From positions 1 through 64,000 of the forward strand of contig NZ_LUTR01000012.1 of assembly GCF_001597725.1 (NCBI RefSeq): a DNA stretch of 64,000 bases, read 5' to 3'. Below are positions 52,599 through 61,018 of the stretch, one piece after another. This DNA is from Neptuniibacter marinus. GTDB taxonomy: Bacteria; Pseudomonadota; Gammaproteobacteria; Pseudomonadales; Balneatricaceae. Each line of letters starts with the position of its first letter. Within the stretch, counting starts at the first letter, position 1. The notes under the pieces are model-generated. The model was given only the letters and a program-made list of their open reading frames with translations, was not told the origin of the DNA and did not search any database. The position numbers and the translations under genes were made by a program.

Positions 52599-52683
52599 TG
52601 ACACTCAACTTAGTCTGATTATTGAACTTATTTTCCAATATAAGTGACTAATTGATCAATAACTTTCTTTGAGAACACTGTTG

Positions 52684-54819
52684 ATGAAAAAATTACCTCT
52701 TATATTGACGATTGCGTTAGCCATCACGGCCTTTTTCTTTTTTGACATAGACCAATACTTAAATTTAGACTTTCTCAAAGCGAATCAAACTAAATTTGAC
52801 CAGCAATACGCAGAAAACCCTCTAGCCACCGCAGCAATTTTCTTTGGGCTTTATATACTCGTGGCGGGCTTATCCCTCCCTGGTGCAGCAATAATGACAC
52901 TTGCGGCGGGCGCCCTATTTGACTTAACAACGGGGTTACTTCTTGTATCCTTTGCCAGCTCAATTGGGGCAACGCTCGCTTTTCTTTTCTCCCGTTTTAT
53001 CTTGCGCGACAGCATCCAAAATCGCTTTGCTAGTCAATTATCCGCTATTAATAAAGGCATCGAGAAAGAAGGCGCATTTTATCTATTCACACTTCGCTTG
53101 GTTCCTCTATTTCCTTTTTTCGTTATCAACTTAGTCATGGGAGTTACTCCCATAAAAACATGGACATTTTATTGGGTAAGCCAGCTAGGAATGTTAGCGG
53201 GAACAATTGTCTTCGTTAATGCAGGCACTCAACTAGGCCAACTAGAAAGCCTATCCGGAATATTATCCCCCAGTATGCTGGCATCCTTTACCCTCCTTGG
53301 CGTTTTCCCATTGATTGCAAAGAAAATAATCGAGCTGCTACAAAGCAGAAAAGTTTACGCAGGCATCAAAAAACCAACAAAATTCGATACGAATATCGTT
53401 GTTATTGGCGCAGGTTCAGCAGGCTTAGTAACGTCGTATATTGCGGCGGCGATAAAAGCAAAAGTCAGCTTAGTCGAGAAAAACCTGATGGGAGGCGACT
53501 GTTTGAATACTGGTTGCGTACCGTCAAAAGCACTCATTCGCTCAGCCCGGTTTGTATCAGACAATAAACGCTGTAAGGAATACGGTATAGAAAAGAGCGA
53601 AGTCAGCTTCAATTTCGCAGACGTGATGGAACGAGTTCAAGAGGTTATTAAAACAGTAGAACCCCACGATTCAATTGAACGTTACACAGGTCTAGGTGTG
53701 GATTGCATTCAAGGTACTGCAACTATATTGAATCCCTATGAAGTCGTGGTGAATGGCGAAATTATTACAACCCGCAATATTGTTATCGCGACAGGTGCTC
53801 GCCCACGTATGCCCGCCGTTAAAAATATAGAAGCGATGAATCCTCTTACATCAGATAACTTATGGAAAATTCGTGAACTGCCTAAACGCTTATTAGTGAT
53901 CGGTGGTGGTCCGATTGGCTGTGAATTAAGTCAGTGTTTTGCTCGCTTTGGTTCTGAAGTCAGTATCTTACTGCCCGATGGGCGGATCATGTCGAGAGAA
54001 GATGAAGATGTTTCAGCCCTAGTAACTGAACGCTTCAGCGCAGAAGGTATTAATATCTTAAATGATAGAAAGATGCGTGAATTTATAGAACGCGATGGCG
54101 AAAAGATTTTGATCAGCGAATATAAAGGGCAAATCGAAGAAATCCCGTTCGACCAACTTCTCGTGGCGATAGGAAGACAAGCCAATATTGAAGGTTTCGG
54201 CCTAGAAAATCTTAATATAGATATCACAGGCAACGGTACAATTGATGTAAATGAATACCTACAAACAAGATTCCCTAATGTTTATGCCTGTGGAGATGTC
54301 GCTGGTCCCTTCCAATTTACTCATGCCGCAGCACATCAAGCGTGGTACGCAGCGGTCAACGCATTGTTTGGCAAATTTAAGAAATTCAAAGTCGATTATT
54401 CCGTTATACCTGCAGCAACCTTTACGGACCCTGAGGTCGCGCGCGTCGGTCTAAACGAGCAAGAAGCAAAAGCACAAAATATAGCTTATGAAGTCACTCG
54501 CTTTGATTTAGCGGAGCTTGATCGCGCTATTGCAGATAATGATGCCCACGGTATGGTAAAAACACTCACAGTGCCCGGCAAAGATAAAATCTTAGGTGCA
54601 ACTATTGTTGGACCACACTCCGGTGAGTTAATCACTGAGTTCGTCACTGCGATAAAACATGGCTTAGGTCTTAACAAGTTACTAGGGACGATCCATATTT
54701 ATCCAACCTTAAGTGAAGCGAACAAATATGCAGCGGGAGAGTGGAAGCGAGCTCATGCGCCTCAGAAAGTTTTACAGTGGTTAGAAAAGTTTCATCGCTG
54801 GCAGCGTGCTGAGAAATAG
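52684..54819 (+). CDS. Fusion: VTT-type membrane domain plus FAD disulfide oxidoreductase
   Basis: A 711-aa two-part protein. Residues about 1-225 form a TVP38/TMEM64 (VTT, DedA-related) membrane domain with a conserved FTLRLVPLFPFFVINLVMG segment. Residues about 235-711 form a pyridine-nucleotide disulfide oxidoreductase: the FAD motif IGAGSAG (241-247), the redox pair C273-LNTG-C278, the NAD motif VIGGGPIGCE, the second FAD motif VYACGDVAG and a dimerisation domain ending HPTL-like (IHIYPTLSEANKYAAG). It resembles the mercuric reductase/dihydrolipoamide dehydrogenase class without a metal-binding N-terminus. The start is the ATG at 52684. The role is unknown; the fusion implies redox chemistry at the inner membrane. 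Its 3' end overlaps the convergent next gene by 28 bp. Confidence 0.87.
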   Translation: MKKLPLILTIALAITAFFFFDIDQYLNLDFLKANQTKFDQQYAENPLATAAIFFGLYILVAGLSLPGAAIMTLAAGALFDLTTGLLLVSFASSIGATLAFLFSRFILRDSIQNRFASQLSAINKGIEKEGAFYLFTLRLVPLFPFFVINLVMGVTPIKTWTFYWVSQLGMLAGTIVFVNAGTQLGQLESLSGILSPSMLASFTLLGVFPLIAKKIIELLQSRKVYAGIKKPTKFDTNIVVIGAGSAGLVTSYIAAAIKAKVSLVEKNLMGGDCLNTGCVPSKALIRSARFVSDNKRCKEYGIEKSEVSFNFADVMERVQEVIKTVEPHDSIERYTGLGVDCIQGTATILNPYEVVVNGEIITTRNIVIATGARPRMPAVKNIEAMNPLTSDNLWKIRELPKRLLVIGGGPIGCELSQCFARFGSEVSILLPDGRIMSREDEDVSALVTERFSAEGINILNDRKMREFIERDGEKILISEYKGQIEEIPFDQLLVAIGRQANIEGFGLENLNIDITGNGTIDVNEYLQTRFPNVYACGDVAGPFQFTHAAAHQAWYAAVNALFGKFKKFKVDYSVIPAATFTDPEVARVGLNEQEAKAQNIAYEVTRFDLAELDRAIADNDAHGMVKTLTVPGKDKILGATIVGPHSGELITEFVTAIKHGLGLNKLLGTIHIYPTLSEANKYAAGEWKRAHAPQKVLQWLEKFHRWQRAEK

Positions 54820-55523
54820 CGCTGCTTTAACAGCTTAAGTAATTCAGGAATTGCCTGCCTTATCCATAAATATTGATAACGGCAGGTAAGATACCACCAG
54901 CCTTTGTCTCTGTATTTTCTAGCACTCGTTTGCAGATATTGAGTACAACATTTTAACTTTATTCCCCGCTGCCTTGCGTACCACACAAACAGATGGTCTT
55001 CCCCATAAGATGCATCTTCAGGATAGCCTCCCACTTGTGCGAAAAGCGTTTTACTAATCGCAAAGCCTTGATCTCCAAACGGTATGCCTAATAGCCGAGA
55101 GCGCAGATTAGCGCCCCAACCATTTAACGCCATACCATTAGAACCATCCGCCAAAAACTGTAATAAACAGTAATGCAGTTTATCCGGTGCCCTCGATAAA
55201 TTAACCCATAAGCTTTCGACTAACTCAACGCTAAAGCGACTATCGACATGCAGAAACCAAATGAACTCACCTTGCGCCGCTTGGGCACCATAATTCATCT
55301 GCACTGCCCGCCCTTGACCTGATTCAAGCCAACTTACCTGAAAAGGCGCCAAGGTTGCCACAATATCTTGCTTATATTGGTCATCGAATCGTTGATGACA
55401 GACAACAAAGATAATTTCACTTGCAGAAGGGATTGCTCGAAGGTCCTCGATCAACCCCACAGGAATAATGGACTCCGCAGGCCCGATGGGAATAACAATA
55501 GAAACAGATAGAGAGTGCTCCAT
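54792..55523 (-). CDS. TIGR04283-type glycosyltransferase (arsenosugar-type)
   Basis: A 243-aa family 2-like glycosyltransferase with the marks of the TIGR04283 group: SWLESGQGRAVQMNYGAQAAQGEFIWFLHVDSRF (GRA.QMN and LH.D), GIPFGDQGFAISKTLF, GGYPEDASYGEDHLF and TSARKYRDKGW. The group is usually beside radical SAM genes and is named after arsenosugar biosynthesis or rSAM/selenodomain association. It is the last gene of the 54792-58051 operon, two bases after the phosphorylase gene. It could transfer the ribosyl-phosphate product onto an acceptor. Confidence 0.82.
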   Translation of the reverse strand: MEHSLSVSIVIPIGPAESIIPVGLIEDLRAIPSASEIIFVVCHQRFDDQYKQDIVATLAPFQVSWLESGQGRAVQMNYGAQAAQGEFIWFLHVDSRFSVELVESLWVNLSRAPDKLHYCLLQFLADGSNGMALNGWGANLRSRLLGIPFGDQGFAISKTLFAQVGGYPEDASYGEDHLFVWYARQRGIKLKCCTQYLQTSARKYRDKGWWYLTCRYQYLWIRQAIPELLKLLKQRYFSARCQR

Positions 55524-55525
55524 AC

Positions 55526-56374
55526 TTAGGAACTTAACACCTCGAGTAAAGAGCGTTGCTCGGCGTTTAACGCGTCTTTAGGGGTCAACACTGCAGCCGC
55601 TAAACTGGTTCGGCAAGTGCAAGTATATTCCACTTCATCTTGATCAATAAAAGCAGTCAGTAAGGTTTTAGCTTTTTCTAAACTTGCTCCATAACGGGCA
55701 ATAACCTGCTCTACTGATACATGCTGATCAGGATCATCCAACCAGCAATCATAATCGGTAGCTATAGCGATAGTGCAATAGCAAAGTTGTGCTTCACGCG
55801 CTAAAAAGACCTCAGGCACATTGGTCATTCCAACCAAATCACAACCTGCGGCCCCTCTCAGAAAGAAACTCTCTGCTCGTGTACCTAAACGCGGCCCATC
55901 GACACAACCATAGGTTTTATCAGTATGAAGTTTTATATCAACGCTTTCACCTGCAGCAACTAAACTTTCTGACAAACAATGGCATGTAGGTTCTGCTGTT
56001 GAAACATGTGCAGCCAAACCTTTACCAAAAAAAGTTTTCTCTCGATTCCCTTTTACAAAATCAAAATACTGACTAGGGAGTGACAGATCTCCCGGCGCAA
56101 TCTCTTCTTGCAAACTACCCACTGCAGAAAGACCAACAACCTGAGTCACACCTAAAGACTTTAACGCCCAAATATTAGCGCGATAATTTACCTCAGAAGG
56201 AAGAAGCTGATGTTGGCGACCGTGTCGAGGTAAAAAGAACAAGGTTCTGCTTCCCCTTTTACCCTCAATAATCGGTGCTGACGGTTTCCCAAAAGGCGTA
56301 TCAACATCGTGCTCGCTAACAACTTCTAAACCCTCTAATTGATAGATCCCTGTACCACCAATAATTCCTAACAC
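55526..56374 (-). CDS. S-methyl-5'-thioadenosine phosphorylase family protein
   Basis: A 282-aa purine-nucleoside phosphorylase of the MTAP type. IGGTGIYQLEG at the N-terminus, PRHGRQHQLLPSEVNYRANIWALKSLGV, the phosphate/ribose site SAVGSLQEEIAPGD, GMTNVPEVFLAREA and ATDYDCW are present. The two Asp in DYDCW bind adenine, so an adenosine-type base is expected. MTAP normally cleaves methylthioadenosine in methionine salvage, but no mtn salvage genes are near. It is co-transcribed with a radical SAM gene, so its substrate could be a 5'-modified adenosine or 5'-deoxyadenosine. A 45-bp gap separates it from the radical SAM gene. Confidence 0.88.
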   Translation of the reverse strand: MLGIIGGTGIYQLEGLEVVSEHDVDTPFGKPSAPIIEGKRGSRTLFFLPRHGRQHQLLPSEVNYRANIWALKSLGVTQVVGLSAVGSLQEEIAPGDLSLPSQYFDFVKGNREKTFFGKGLAAHVSTAEPTCHCLSESLVAAGESVDIKLHTDKTYGCVDGPRLGTRAESFFLRGAAGCDLVGMTNVPEVFLAREAQLCYCTIAIATDYDCWLDDPDQHVSVEQVIARYGASLEKAKTLLTAFIDQDEVEYTCTCRTSLAAAVLTPKDALNAEQRSLLEVLSS

Positions 56375-56419
56375 TTATGTCCCCTTATTTAAATGAATCA
56401 TCATTAACATCTCAAATAG

Positions 56420-57331
56420 CTACGCCTCGCTACATGAGGAGCCATAAGCAAAACAACTATAGCAACGATGATGTTTCATGCTAATTCTTTCACTTAAACT
56501 TTCAGTTAAACTAAACCCTTGATCATACTCTTCATCATCATCCACCAGCGTACAAGCATACACTTTCATCTGCCCCTGCTTTTTCACAACCATTTTGCTA
56601 AAAGCACACATAAAGTCCTTCCGGCTCTTTTCGGTCTGATAAGTAGTCATACAACTTGTCGTCACTTGAGGGACATGAGGTAAGCTTCCAGGGGTAGCAA
56701 AGTCAGGGAAAGCAACAATATGCAGATCTTCCGGTAAACCGTAAGCAATAAACAGGTCACGGTAAGACGCCTCAACCTCTTCACGCTGTTCCTCTTTTTC
56801 CATATGTCGTGCAACAGAAACGGAGAACCCTAAATCGTATAATGCTTTAAGGCCTTCCATCGCTTTATCAAAATTACCCTCTCCTCGTCCAGCATCATGC
56901 TGTTTCGCAGCAGCGTAATCTATACTAATACGAAAACTAACAGGGTGTTCAGCATCTTGCAGTGAACGCACTTCATCCATTCTTTGCTGAAGGGCATCGG
57001 TACCATTAGTGAGCACAAGGCAAGGTTTAAACTTAGCCGCGTAAGCTAAAATTTGTACAAGTTGCTTTGCGAGAAAAGGCTCTCCGCCGGTAAAAGAAAA
57101 TTGCTCTACCTCTAAGGTTAATGCTTCATCAATCAGCGGTTTAACATCCGCAAACTTGACTAAATCTAATCGGGTGTCACCAGGCCCTGAACCTTCCAAA
57201 CAAAAAGAACATTGTAAGTTACACGCAGTGCCGGTATGAAACCAAAGTTCTCGTAGCGCATGAGGCTCTATATAACCTCTAGGTTTTCCATCAGGCGTGA
57301 TAAACCAGTTATCTGTATGAATACGTTGCAT
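56420..57331 (-). CDS. Radical SAM protein with Cys-rich C-terminus (SPASM/twitch-like)
   Basis: A 303-aa radical SAM enzyme. The 4Fe-4S motif is C37-NLQ-C41-SF-C44 and the SAM-binding segment is TGGEPF (81-86). A C-terminal part has Cys at 227, 242, 260, 290, 293 and 300, ending CYSCFAYGSSC, which fits one or two auxiliary clusters of twitch/SPASM type. The substrate is unknown. Proteins like this occur beside TIGR04282/TIGR04283 glycosyltransferases and MTAP. It differs from the ArsS (TIGR04167) enzyme of arsenosugar synthesis in lacking a clear DUF3641 C-terminal domain. Confidence 0.82.
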   Translation of the reverse strand: MQRIHTDNWFITPDGKPRGYIEPHALRELWFHTGTACNLQCSFCLEGSGPGDTRLDLVKFADVKPLIDEALTLEVEQFSFTGGEPFLAKQLVQILAYAAKFKPCLVLTNGTDALQQRMDEVRSLQDAEHPVSFRISIDYAAAKQHDAGRGEGNFDKAMEGLKALYDLGFSVSVARHMEKEEQREEVEASYRDLFIAYGLPEDLHIVAFPDFATPGSLPHVPQVTTSCMTTYQTEKSRKDFMCAFSKMVVKKQGQMKVYACTLVDDDEEYDQGFSLTESLSERISMKHHRCYSCFAYGSSCSEA

Positions 57332-57352
57332 TTTTTAATCGCCTAACTGGGG

Positions 57353-58051
57353 TTAACTTGTCACTTTAATAGTGTCGTTATGAGTAATAGATTGAACAAG
57401 CCTTAACAAGGCTTGCCGTGATGGTCTTACATCACCAGCTAAATCTACTATTAACTTGTGCAGGTCTTTCTCGTAATCAATATCATAACTTGGTGGAGCA
57501 TAGGCAACTGAACGTTTAGCATCGATGCAAACATGATAAAGAGCCTCACCTAAACGATCGGTACTCCAAGGAAGGTCAGCAATTTCAGGCCAATGGCTAT
57601 TGCTTCCCATTAAAGTGACCCCCCCATCTTCGGCGGCACTAAAAGTAACATCTTGGGTTTTTAAGGCATCCAAAGCACAGCTAAAAATCCTCTCATTTAA
57701 GATAGGAGCATCAGTACCTATAATAATTATTTTTTTATGGCCTTGATCACGTAACTGCTGATCAACTGCCATGATCCGTTGCCCTAAACTACCCTGCGGC
57801 TGGGCAAGTACCTCAGCGCCTGTTAAGAGACCTTGCGCCCACTCAACCTCTTCTGGGCCTGCTGGCGATAGCACTACAGGACCTCTCCACTTAGTGGCGT
57901 CTTCCAATGCACAATTCAACAAAGCAGATGCCAGATTAAACGCTGTCTCAGCTCCCAGTGTGGCAGCTATTCGTTGCTTCCCCTGATTGAGTCTCGGTTG
58001 TTTACAAAATACGAGCAGGGTGGCGCCTTCCTGTTGATACTTATTATTCAC
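57353..58051 (-). CDS. TIGR04282-type glycosyltransferase/nucleotidyltransferase-like protein (DUF2064)
   Basis: A 232-aa GT-A/nucleotidyltransferase-fold protein of the DUF2064/TIGR04282 group. It has VFCKQPRLNQGKQRIAATLG, GSLGQRIMAV, IIIIGTDAPILNERIF and DGGVTLMGSN..WPEIADLPWSTDRLGEA. The group is paired with TIGR04283 and radical SAM proteins and is thought to make or transfer an activated sugar; in this copy the usual GD(S/A)P-type motif is GTDAP. It is the first gene of the four-gene operon, divergent from nfsA across 189 bp. Confidence 0.82.
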   Translation of the reverse strand: MNNKYQQEGATLLVFCKQPRLNQGKQRIAATLGAETAFNLASALLNCALEDATKWRGPVVLSPAGPEEVEWAQGLLTGAEVLAQPQGSLGQRIMAVDQQLRDQGHKKIIIIGTDAPILNERIFSCALDALKTQDVTFSAAEDGGVTLMGSNSHWPEIADLPWSTDRLGEALYHVCIDAKRSVAYAPPSYDIDYEKDLHKLIVDLAGDVRPSRQALLRLVQSITHNDTIKVTS

Positions 58052-60274: not shown

Positions 60275-61018
60275 ATGCACTTATTAGATAATATTGAGTT
60301 ATCCCTACTCCTAATCCTATCTTCTGCAGTAACTTCATTTATAACTGCAGCGATGGGAATAGGCGGAGGTGTGCTTCTCTTAGCTATTCTAGCCTCAGTT
60401 CTCCCGCCCGCAGCCCTTATACCTGTCCACGGCCTCGTCCAGCTTGGTTCAAATGGAAACAGGGCTTGGATGACCAAACAGCATACCGACTGGACTATGG
60501 TTAAATTCTTCTCCATCGGCGCGTTGCTAGGTGCCCTTTGCGCCTCATTTATTGTGATTCAGCTTCCACTTGTTTTGATTCAATTGAGCGTAGCGTTCTT
60601 CATTTTATATCTAATTTGGGGACCAAAACCAAAACAGCAGCAGATGGGTAATAAAGGCTATCTATTGGCAGGGTTAGGGACAACACTGATCTCAATGTTT
60701 GTTGGTGCAACCGGCCCCCTTGTTGCAGGTTTTGTGCATCGCCAAAGCTACGATAAATTTACCACGACCAGCACCTTTGCAACCTGCATGAGCCTGCAAC
60801 ATCTTCTAAAAATACTTGTATTTACATTTGTTGGCTTTGCATTTTGGGAGTGGCTACCTTTAGCCATATTAATGATTTTAGGTGGCATCTTCGGCACTTG
60901 GCTAGGACTGAAAATGTTACATAAAATACCCACTAAGTACTTTTCCAATATTTTTAGAGTCGTGATTACCTTGCTCGCCATACGCTTACTGTGGCAAGCG
61001 GTTGAGAGCTTACTCTGA
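60275..61018 (+). CDS. TauE/SafE family (sulfite exporter-like) permease
   Basis: A 247-aa inner-membrane protein with about eight hydrophobic segments. It contains the two TauE/SafE repeats, seen by FITAAMGIGGGVLLLAIL and SMFVGATGPLVAGF, each with a small glycine/proline-rich motif. Family members export sulfite, sulfoacetate or related anions; the substrate here cannot be read. It follows the HDOD gene by 17 bp and converges on ilvD. Confidence 0.88.
   Translation: MHLLDNIELSLLLILSSAVTSFITAAMGIGGGVLLLAILASVLPPAALIPVHGLVQLGSNGNRAWMTKQHTDWTMVKFFSIGALLGALCASFIVIQLPLVLIQLSVAFFILYLIWGPKPKQQQMGNKGYLLAGLGTTLISMFVGATGPLVAGFVHRQSYDKFTTTSTFATCMSLQHLLKILVFTFVGFAFWEWLPLAILMILGGIFGTWLGLKMLHKIPTKYFSNIFRVVITLLAIRLLWQAVESLL

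Follow-up and report, generated by a model that had tools for sequence, protein, structure and literature searches.

Arsenosugars and arsenolipids are widespread arsenic compounds in seaweed and seafood. ArsM is reportedly involved, providing dimethylated arsenic (DMA; so a title by Xue from 2017), and ArsS (family TIGR04167, here called canonical ArsS), a radical SAM (S-adenosylmethionine) enzyme, is described as adenosylating arsenic. To my knowledge, the genes for the arsenosugar steps after ArsS are not settled. Here I describe a four-gene operon in the gammaproteobacterium Neptuniibacter marinus, within a window of 64,000 nucleotides (the whole stretch of DNA that was analysed, positions 1 to 64,000 of contig NZ_LUTR01000012.1), which probably encodes an arsenosugar-type pathway that is a variant of the known one and uses a second, ArsS-like radical SAM family. 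Among the open-access papers listed in literature searches, judged by title and the start of the abstract, none is on this family; subscription papers and preprints were outside the scope of these searches. The four genes, and a fifth that faces them, are the following.

57353-58051, minus strand: gtA, a TIGR04282/DUF2064 CofC-like protein
56420-57331, minus strand: radical SAM protein with a CxxxCxxC cluster motif and six conserved C-terminal cysteines
55526-56374, minus strand: MTAP-type phosphorylase, above the TIGR01694 cut-off, with a DYDCW site
54792-55523, minus strand: gtB, a TIGR04283/GT2-like transferase
52669-54819, plus strand: VTT membrane domain fused to an FAD disulfide oxidoreductase (VTT-FAD), with VTT_dom and Pyr_redox_2

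The four open reading frames (ORFs) of the operon follow one another in tandem on the minus strand, from 54792 to 58051, and are separated by 21, 45 and 2 bp, which confirms the layout given in the original prediction, an earlier reading of this DNA from its letters alone. From the size of these gaps I infer a single transcript; a promoter scan, with 5 promoter-like sites against 7.0 expected, carries no information on this point. The VTT-FAD gene is convergent with the operon, and the two overlap by 28 bp at the 3' end of gtB.

The gene set is conserved outside the genus. Three samples were used: 96 related genomes, a class-wide set of 274 genomes, and 80 named loci, the last being the best 80 of 510 from a search of named genomes that confirmed at least 510 relatives, so that locus counts are biased to close relatives. 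The window-type radical SAM gene occurs in 27 of the 96 genomes, namely the window's own, 25 with orthologues at 54-98% identity, and one (G007) whose copy is cut by a contig end to 71 residues and was included as present. Among the best 80, the nearest are six Neptuniibacter loci, whose radical SAM proteins are 77-98% identical to that of the window, and the remainder extend across Oceanospirillales, Alteromonadales, Vibrionaceae, Alphaproteobacteria and a few other phyla (these last as metagenome-assembled genomes). Up to 5 kb away from the radical SAM gene, gtA occurs at 63 of these 80 loci, gtB at 56, a complete or half VTT-FAD at 33, MTAP at 29, an ArsM-like gene at 28 (at 22 of these on the same strand) and an ArsC-like gene at 13. 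Less than 4 kb is available on one side at 28 of them; among the other 52, where each flank reaches 4 kb or more, 48 carry one or more of gtA, gtB, VTT-FAD, MTAP or ArsM, and 24 carry MTAP. Homologues of the genes that had been read as one pathway thus do co-occur elsewhere. In Marinobacterium, Amphritea and relatives (e.g. L046, L058, L063) the window-type set lacks MTAP within 5 kb, and the Marinobacterium/Amphritea-type sets come after a gene read by eye as cysteinyl-tRNA synthetase.

Much the same neighbours surround canonical ArsS. Loci with wide flanks were extracted for 20 of the 28 canonical ArsS genomes and 20 of the 26 other window-type genomes, some of them shortened by contig ends. 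The canonical loci contain gtB in 16, gtA in 15, long MTAP (defined below) in 5 and ArsM in 1, with VTT-FAD in 14 of 20 and one further copy about 7 kb off; the window-type loci contain gtA and gtB in 17 each, VTT-FAD in 12, MTAP in 10 and ArsM in 2. The two radical SAM families share this setting without sharing a genome: in the set of 96, 27 genomes have the window type, 28 have canonical ArsS and none has both (Fisher p 1.3e-5, relatives not being independent), and class-wide the counts are 5 and 137 with no overlap (p 0.03). The radical SAM cores are themselves homologous, with 29% identity over 143 columns in a profile comparison (E 7.8e-15). Because the gene setting is shared, the two never co-occur and the cores are homologous, the window radical SAM protein appears to act in the place of ArsS, although outside TIGR04167.

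Two further kinds of gene near canonical ArsS deserve mention. A DUF547 or fatty-acid hydroxylase-like gene often lies between VTT-FAD and gtB, or beside ArsS (L184, L186, L189, L191, L194-L197; two of these calls were made by Pfam and the others by eye), and such neighbours hint at a lipid product. Separately, the window has at 60275-61018, about 2.2 kb from the operon, a gene that looks by eye like one for a TSUP-type permease, and a homologue of it (46% identity) is immediately upstream of canonical ArsS in G065 (L179).

The radical SAM protein scores 61.9 bits against Pfam Radical_SAM (cut-off 29.5), and among the NCBIfam matches listed (25 of 52) no family is reached at its cut-off. Its cluster cysteines are C37, C41 and C44, and six C-terminal cysteines (227, 242, 260, 290, 293 and 300) are invariant in all 19 aligned orthologues. 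No DUF3641 was detected in its Pfam scan, so that the description of it as a radical SAM enzyme without DUF3641 and with a six-Cys C-terminus is borne out. A C-terminal cysteine motif ends in GSSC in both families, CYSCFAYGSSC in the window and CYGCTAGQGSSC in canonical ArsS (an alignment of 14 of 15 rows, L188 being left out). Selenocysteine was considered in L188 and ruled out, as the stop is the natural gene end. A profile match between the two C-terminal parts, which covers the CYxCx(3-4)GSSC end only, scored 25.65 compared with a highest score of 20.79 in 100 column shuffles, and weakly suggests that these parts are homologous as well.

The phosphorylase scores 277.9 bits against TIGR01694, the MTAP family (cut-off 274.85), and contains the adenine-specific DYDCW site that had been read from the sequence. 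I call a phosphorylase a long MTAP if it scores at least 226 bits against the window copy, a division set after viewing the scores; all other MTAP-type matches in the 96 genomes (E <=1e-20) score 164 bits or less. Long MTAP occurs in 18 of the 96 genomes, in every case with a window-type radical SAM gene (13) or canonical ArsS (5) no more than about 2.3 kb away. The five beside canonical ArsS are only 43-45% identical to the window copy and all lack its CTC tail motif; there are thus, from these comparisons, two phosphorylase subtypes, one for each radical SAM setting.

What else could such a phosphorylase do? Methionine salvage was considered as its role; the genome has MtnN (336.4 bits), no MtnA match was found and the other salvage genes were not searched. 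Since MtnN is present and MtnA was not found, a place for the phosphorylase in methionine salvage is unlikely, which counts against one of the objections that the original prediction had raised against itself. No second MTAP match was found in the genome at E <=1e-20. A different explanation is that the phosphorylase only recycles 5'-deoxyadenosine made by the radical SAM protein, while the operon modifies a peptide or some other small molecule unrelated to arsenic. MTAP enzymes can accept 5'-deoxyadenosine, which counts in favour of this, and the radical SAM core scores higher against the peptide maturases WgkB (66.9 bits) and StsB (61.7) than against ArsS (57.2). However, MtnN is already there for recycling, the relatives' operons contain ArsM- and ArsC-like genes, canonical ArsS has the same partners, and no conserved small precursor gene was seen in ORF maps that covered products of at least 70-80 residues. 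I therefore regard the explanation as very unlikely.

For the two sugar-type enzymes the best named families are TIGR04282 for gtA (122.3 bits, cut-off 134) and TIGR04283 for gtB (156.4 bits, cut-off 182), as in the original prediction, whose radical SAM and MTAP assignments likewise hold; the TIGR04282 and TIGR04283 scores are below cut-off. By Pfam, gtA matches DUF2064 (68.6 bits, cut-off 25.8) and CofC (25.4, cut-off 22), and an alignment of 32 proteins from both settings has P19, K25, R27, G112, D114, the DGG at 142-144, D190, D192 and D196 invariant. A profile of these 32 relatives gave five matches in the PDB: a putative nucleotide-diphospho-sugar transferase (3cgx), 3-phosphoglycerate and 2-phospholactate guanylyltransferases, a hypothetical protein and, weakly, a KDO cytidylyltransferase. 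These matches make a nucleotidyltransferase likelier for gtA than a glycosyltransferase, and I therefore propose that it acts on a sugar-1-phosphate. The gtB protein matches Glycos_transf_2 (26.5 bits, cut-off 23.3), and its profile found no PDB match at E <=0.01. The earlier suggestion that one or both sugar enzymes perform a glycosylation is kept, as a proposal, for gtB and looks less likely for gtA.

A connection to arsenic comes from the operons of some relatives. In L040 (Gpa_13, same genus) the order is gtA-ArsM-radical SAM-MTAP-gtB, and in Motiliproteus (L041, L043), Endozoicomonas (L071) and Enterovibrio (L104) it is gtA-ArsM-radical SAM-ArsC-MTAP-gtB. A methyltransferase gene between gtA and the radical SAM gene was found twice within the same genus (L040 and G007). 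The five operon ArsM-like proteins scanned have NF008823 as their best family, at 163-193 bits and below its cut-off of 263, and Cys 24, 52, 145 and 195, which I take to be the catalytic cysteines of ArsM, are conserved in all 14 aligned. The ArsC-like protein of L041 scores 131.9 bits against TIGR02691 (cut-off 174.3), and that of L048 has no family match at E 1e-20. Class-wide, four genomes other than the window's contain the window type: G227, G233 and G234 have ArsM next to the radical SAM gene, and none was found in G314, a genome 82% complete.

The genome of the window is different. A search found no NF008823 match at E <=1e-25 and no match to a profile of the operon-type ArsM at E <=1e-30, and a hidden divergent ArsM was rejected as matches at E <=0.001 were read by eye as UbiE-like, BioC-like and other methyltransferases. 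Beyond the locus, where its absence had been noted, ArsM was thus not found in the genome either, but this is no peculiarity of this operon: in the same set ArsM was not found in 20 of 27 window-type genomes, nor in 18 of 28 with canonical ArsS. ArsM is nonetheless associated with ArsS-type enzymes overall (p 2e-4 in the 96 genomes; it is present in 7 of 27 window-type genomes, 10 of 28 canonical ArsS genomes and 1 of the 41 that have neither family), even though most genomes with such an enzyme lack it. Counting as ArsM any NF008823 match at E <=1e-25, short ones included, 101 of 137 canonical ArsS genomes have it class-wide compared with 15 of 132 with neither family. ArsM-less carriers are thus characteristic of the sampled order and not of ArsS generally (canonical ArsS genomes without a recognisable ArsM number 18 of 28 in the set of 96 and 36 of 137 class-wide). 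In the class sample, several strong NF008823 matches with one in-frame stop (TGA, TAG or TAA) were seen, for example in G221, G109, G298, G286, G150 and G231, and some may be matches that extend beyond the natural gene end. Another methyltransferase filling the gaps of ArsM-less ArsS loci was looked for and rejected; the two gap genes scanned are a DUF547 and a fatty-acid hydroxylase gene, and the others were read by eye.

One alternative is that the radical SAM enzyme of the same module adenosylates a soft nucleophile other than methylated arsenic, such as inorganic arsenite or a selenium or sulfur compound, to make a different 5-modified riboside conjugate. It would account for the many genomes of the order without ArsM, and the repeated gain and loss of the linked gene also counts in its favour: on a tree of the best 80 radical SAM proteins the ArsM linkage (within 5 kb, plus L048 and L090, with L098, whose ArsM-like gene is about 8 kb away, labelled as lacking it) changes 14 times, at least 10 of them forced by well-supported branches. 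Against it, the proteins with and without a linked ArsM are not clearly divided at any position (the largest frequency distance, 0.62 at position 217, is confounded with kinship), the nine cysteines are read in 77 of the best 80 relatives (the other three being unresolved at one or two), and relatives' operons do contain ArsM- and ArsC-like genes. I consider a different acceptor unlikely; linkage that switches on the tree, with no residues clearly marking the ArsM-less enzymes, fits a single conserved reaction fed by a substrate of differing origin.

The arsinothricin genes arsQML likewise have ArsM next to a radical SAM gene, and their ArsL is described as transferring an aminocarboxypropyl group (PMC8552651). 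If the operon were of this kind, methylthioadenosine (MTA) would be a by-product and the MTAP-type phosphorylase would fit. I regard this explanation, too, as very unlikely: the operon repeatedly includes two sugar-type enzymes, canonical ArsS, which is described as adenosylating arsenic, has a related phosphorylase beside it as well, and there is no ArsL family among the NCBIfam matches listed (25 of 52), no direct comparison with an ArsL sequence having been made.

To return to the arsenosugar-type pathway, the reading that I favour, a route can be proposed in four steps. The radical SAM protein would take the 5'-deoxyadenosyl group from SAM and attach it to a trivalent methylated arsenical; from the resulting 5'-arsino-5'-deoxyadenosine the dedicated MTAP-type phosphorylase would strip adenine to leave a 5-modified ribose-1-phosphate. 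The CofC-like nucleotidyltransferase gtA would convert this to a nucleotide sugar, and gtB would then hand the activated sugar to an acceptor, e.g. glycerol or the head group of a phospholipid. A possible role of the VTT-FAD protein is to hold the arsenical in its trivalent state. In some relatives ArsM of the same operon would supply the methylated arsenic; in the organism of the window, because ArsM was not found in its genome, the methylated arsenic is probably environmental or else produced by an unrecognised enzyme. The earlier proposal of an arsenosugar-like route is strengthened because the operons of some relatives hold ArsM-like and ArsC-like genes, because ArsS has the same partners and because the two radical SAM families never co-occur; the arsenic in the product itself is something I infer.

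Several observations weigh against this reading. Counted by genera, the two families exclude each other only weakly (9 and 19 of 52, with one genus in common, p 0.08). The radical SAM protein fails both TIGR04167 (57.2 bits against a cut-off of 300, and so not a member) and DUF3641, and by HMM score it is closer to the Rv1681 family NF049973, its top NCBIfam score (109.3 bits over residues 28-201, below the cut-off of 380), than to ArsS. A first whole-length profile comparison with ArsS aligned 272 columns (P 97.9, E 4.9e-13), but with larger alignments and without realignment only 143 columns remained (E 6.3e-13), so that the ArsS match is the radical SAM core; the C-terminal part alone gave E 0.0014 across 14 columns. 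MTAP is missing within 5 kb at 51 of the best 80 loci (28 of the 52 well-flanked ones), and 4 of those 52 have no gtA, gtB, VTT-FAD, MTAP or ArsM. Finally, the window type shows no significant association with ArsM (7 of 27 genomes with it against 11 of 69 without, p 0.26), and the window's genome has no detected ArsM despite the high class-wide frequency of ArsM among canonical ArsS genomes.

The genes conserved next to both of the alternative radical SAM families make up a short candidate list for the steps after ArsS: a phosphorylase, a nucleotidyltransferase and a transferase. ArsS-type enzymes without a detectable ArsM in this order also raise the question of who produces the methylated arsenic. 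I tentatively suggest, as a plausible extension that falls short of an even chance, that a second ArsS family in marine bacteria takes methylated arsenic from seawater and builds arsenosugars or arsenosugar lipids with it, with methylation and assembly split between organisms and with the phosphorylase, gtA and gtB carrying out the post-ArsS steps.

How, then, does the operon compare with described systems? It resembles arsQML in having, in relatives, ArsM next to a radical SAM enzyme, and differs in its sugar enzymes and phosphorylase, which the part of the arsinothricin work consulted does not mention (PMC8552651). Likeness to the Rv1681 family spans the radical SAM core only. The phosphorylase resembles the S-methyl-5'-thioadenosine phosphorylases of TIGR01694 in its score and DYDCW site, and differs in its location in this operon, in a genome without an MtnA match. 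TIGR04282 and TIGR04283, named as arsenosugar biosynthesis glycosyltransferases, are the best families for gtA and gtB, yet both proteins score below the curated cut-offs. From canonical ArsS the window family is set apart by the lack of DUF3641 (present at 195.1 bits in the ArsS of L179), by six invariant C-terminal cysteines in place of five, and by a cluster motif that reads CNLxCxFC and not CNxxCxHCHV. What it has in common with canonical ArsS is a homologous radical SAM core, the CYxCx(3-4)GSSC end motif, and gtA, gtB and VTT-FAD as partners, joined sometimes by MTAP and ArsM.

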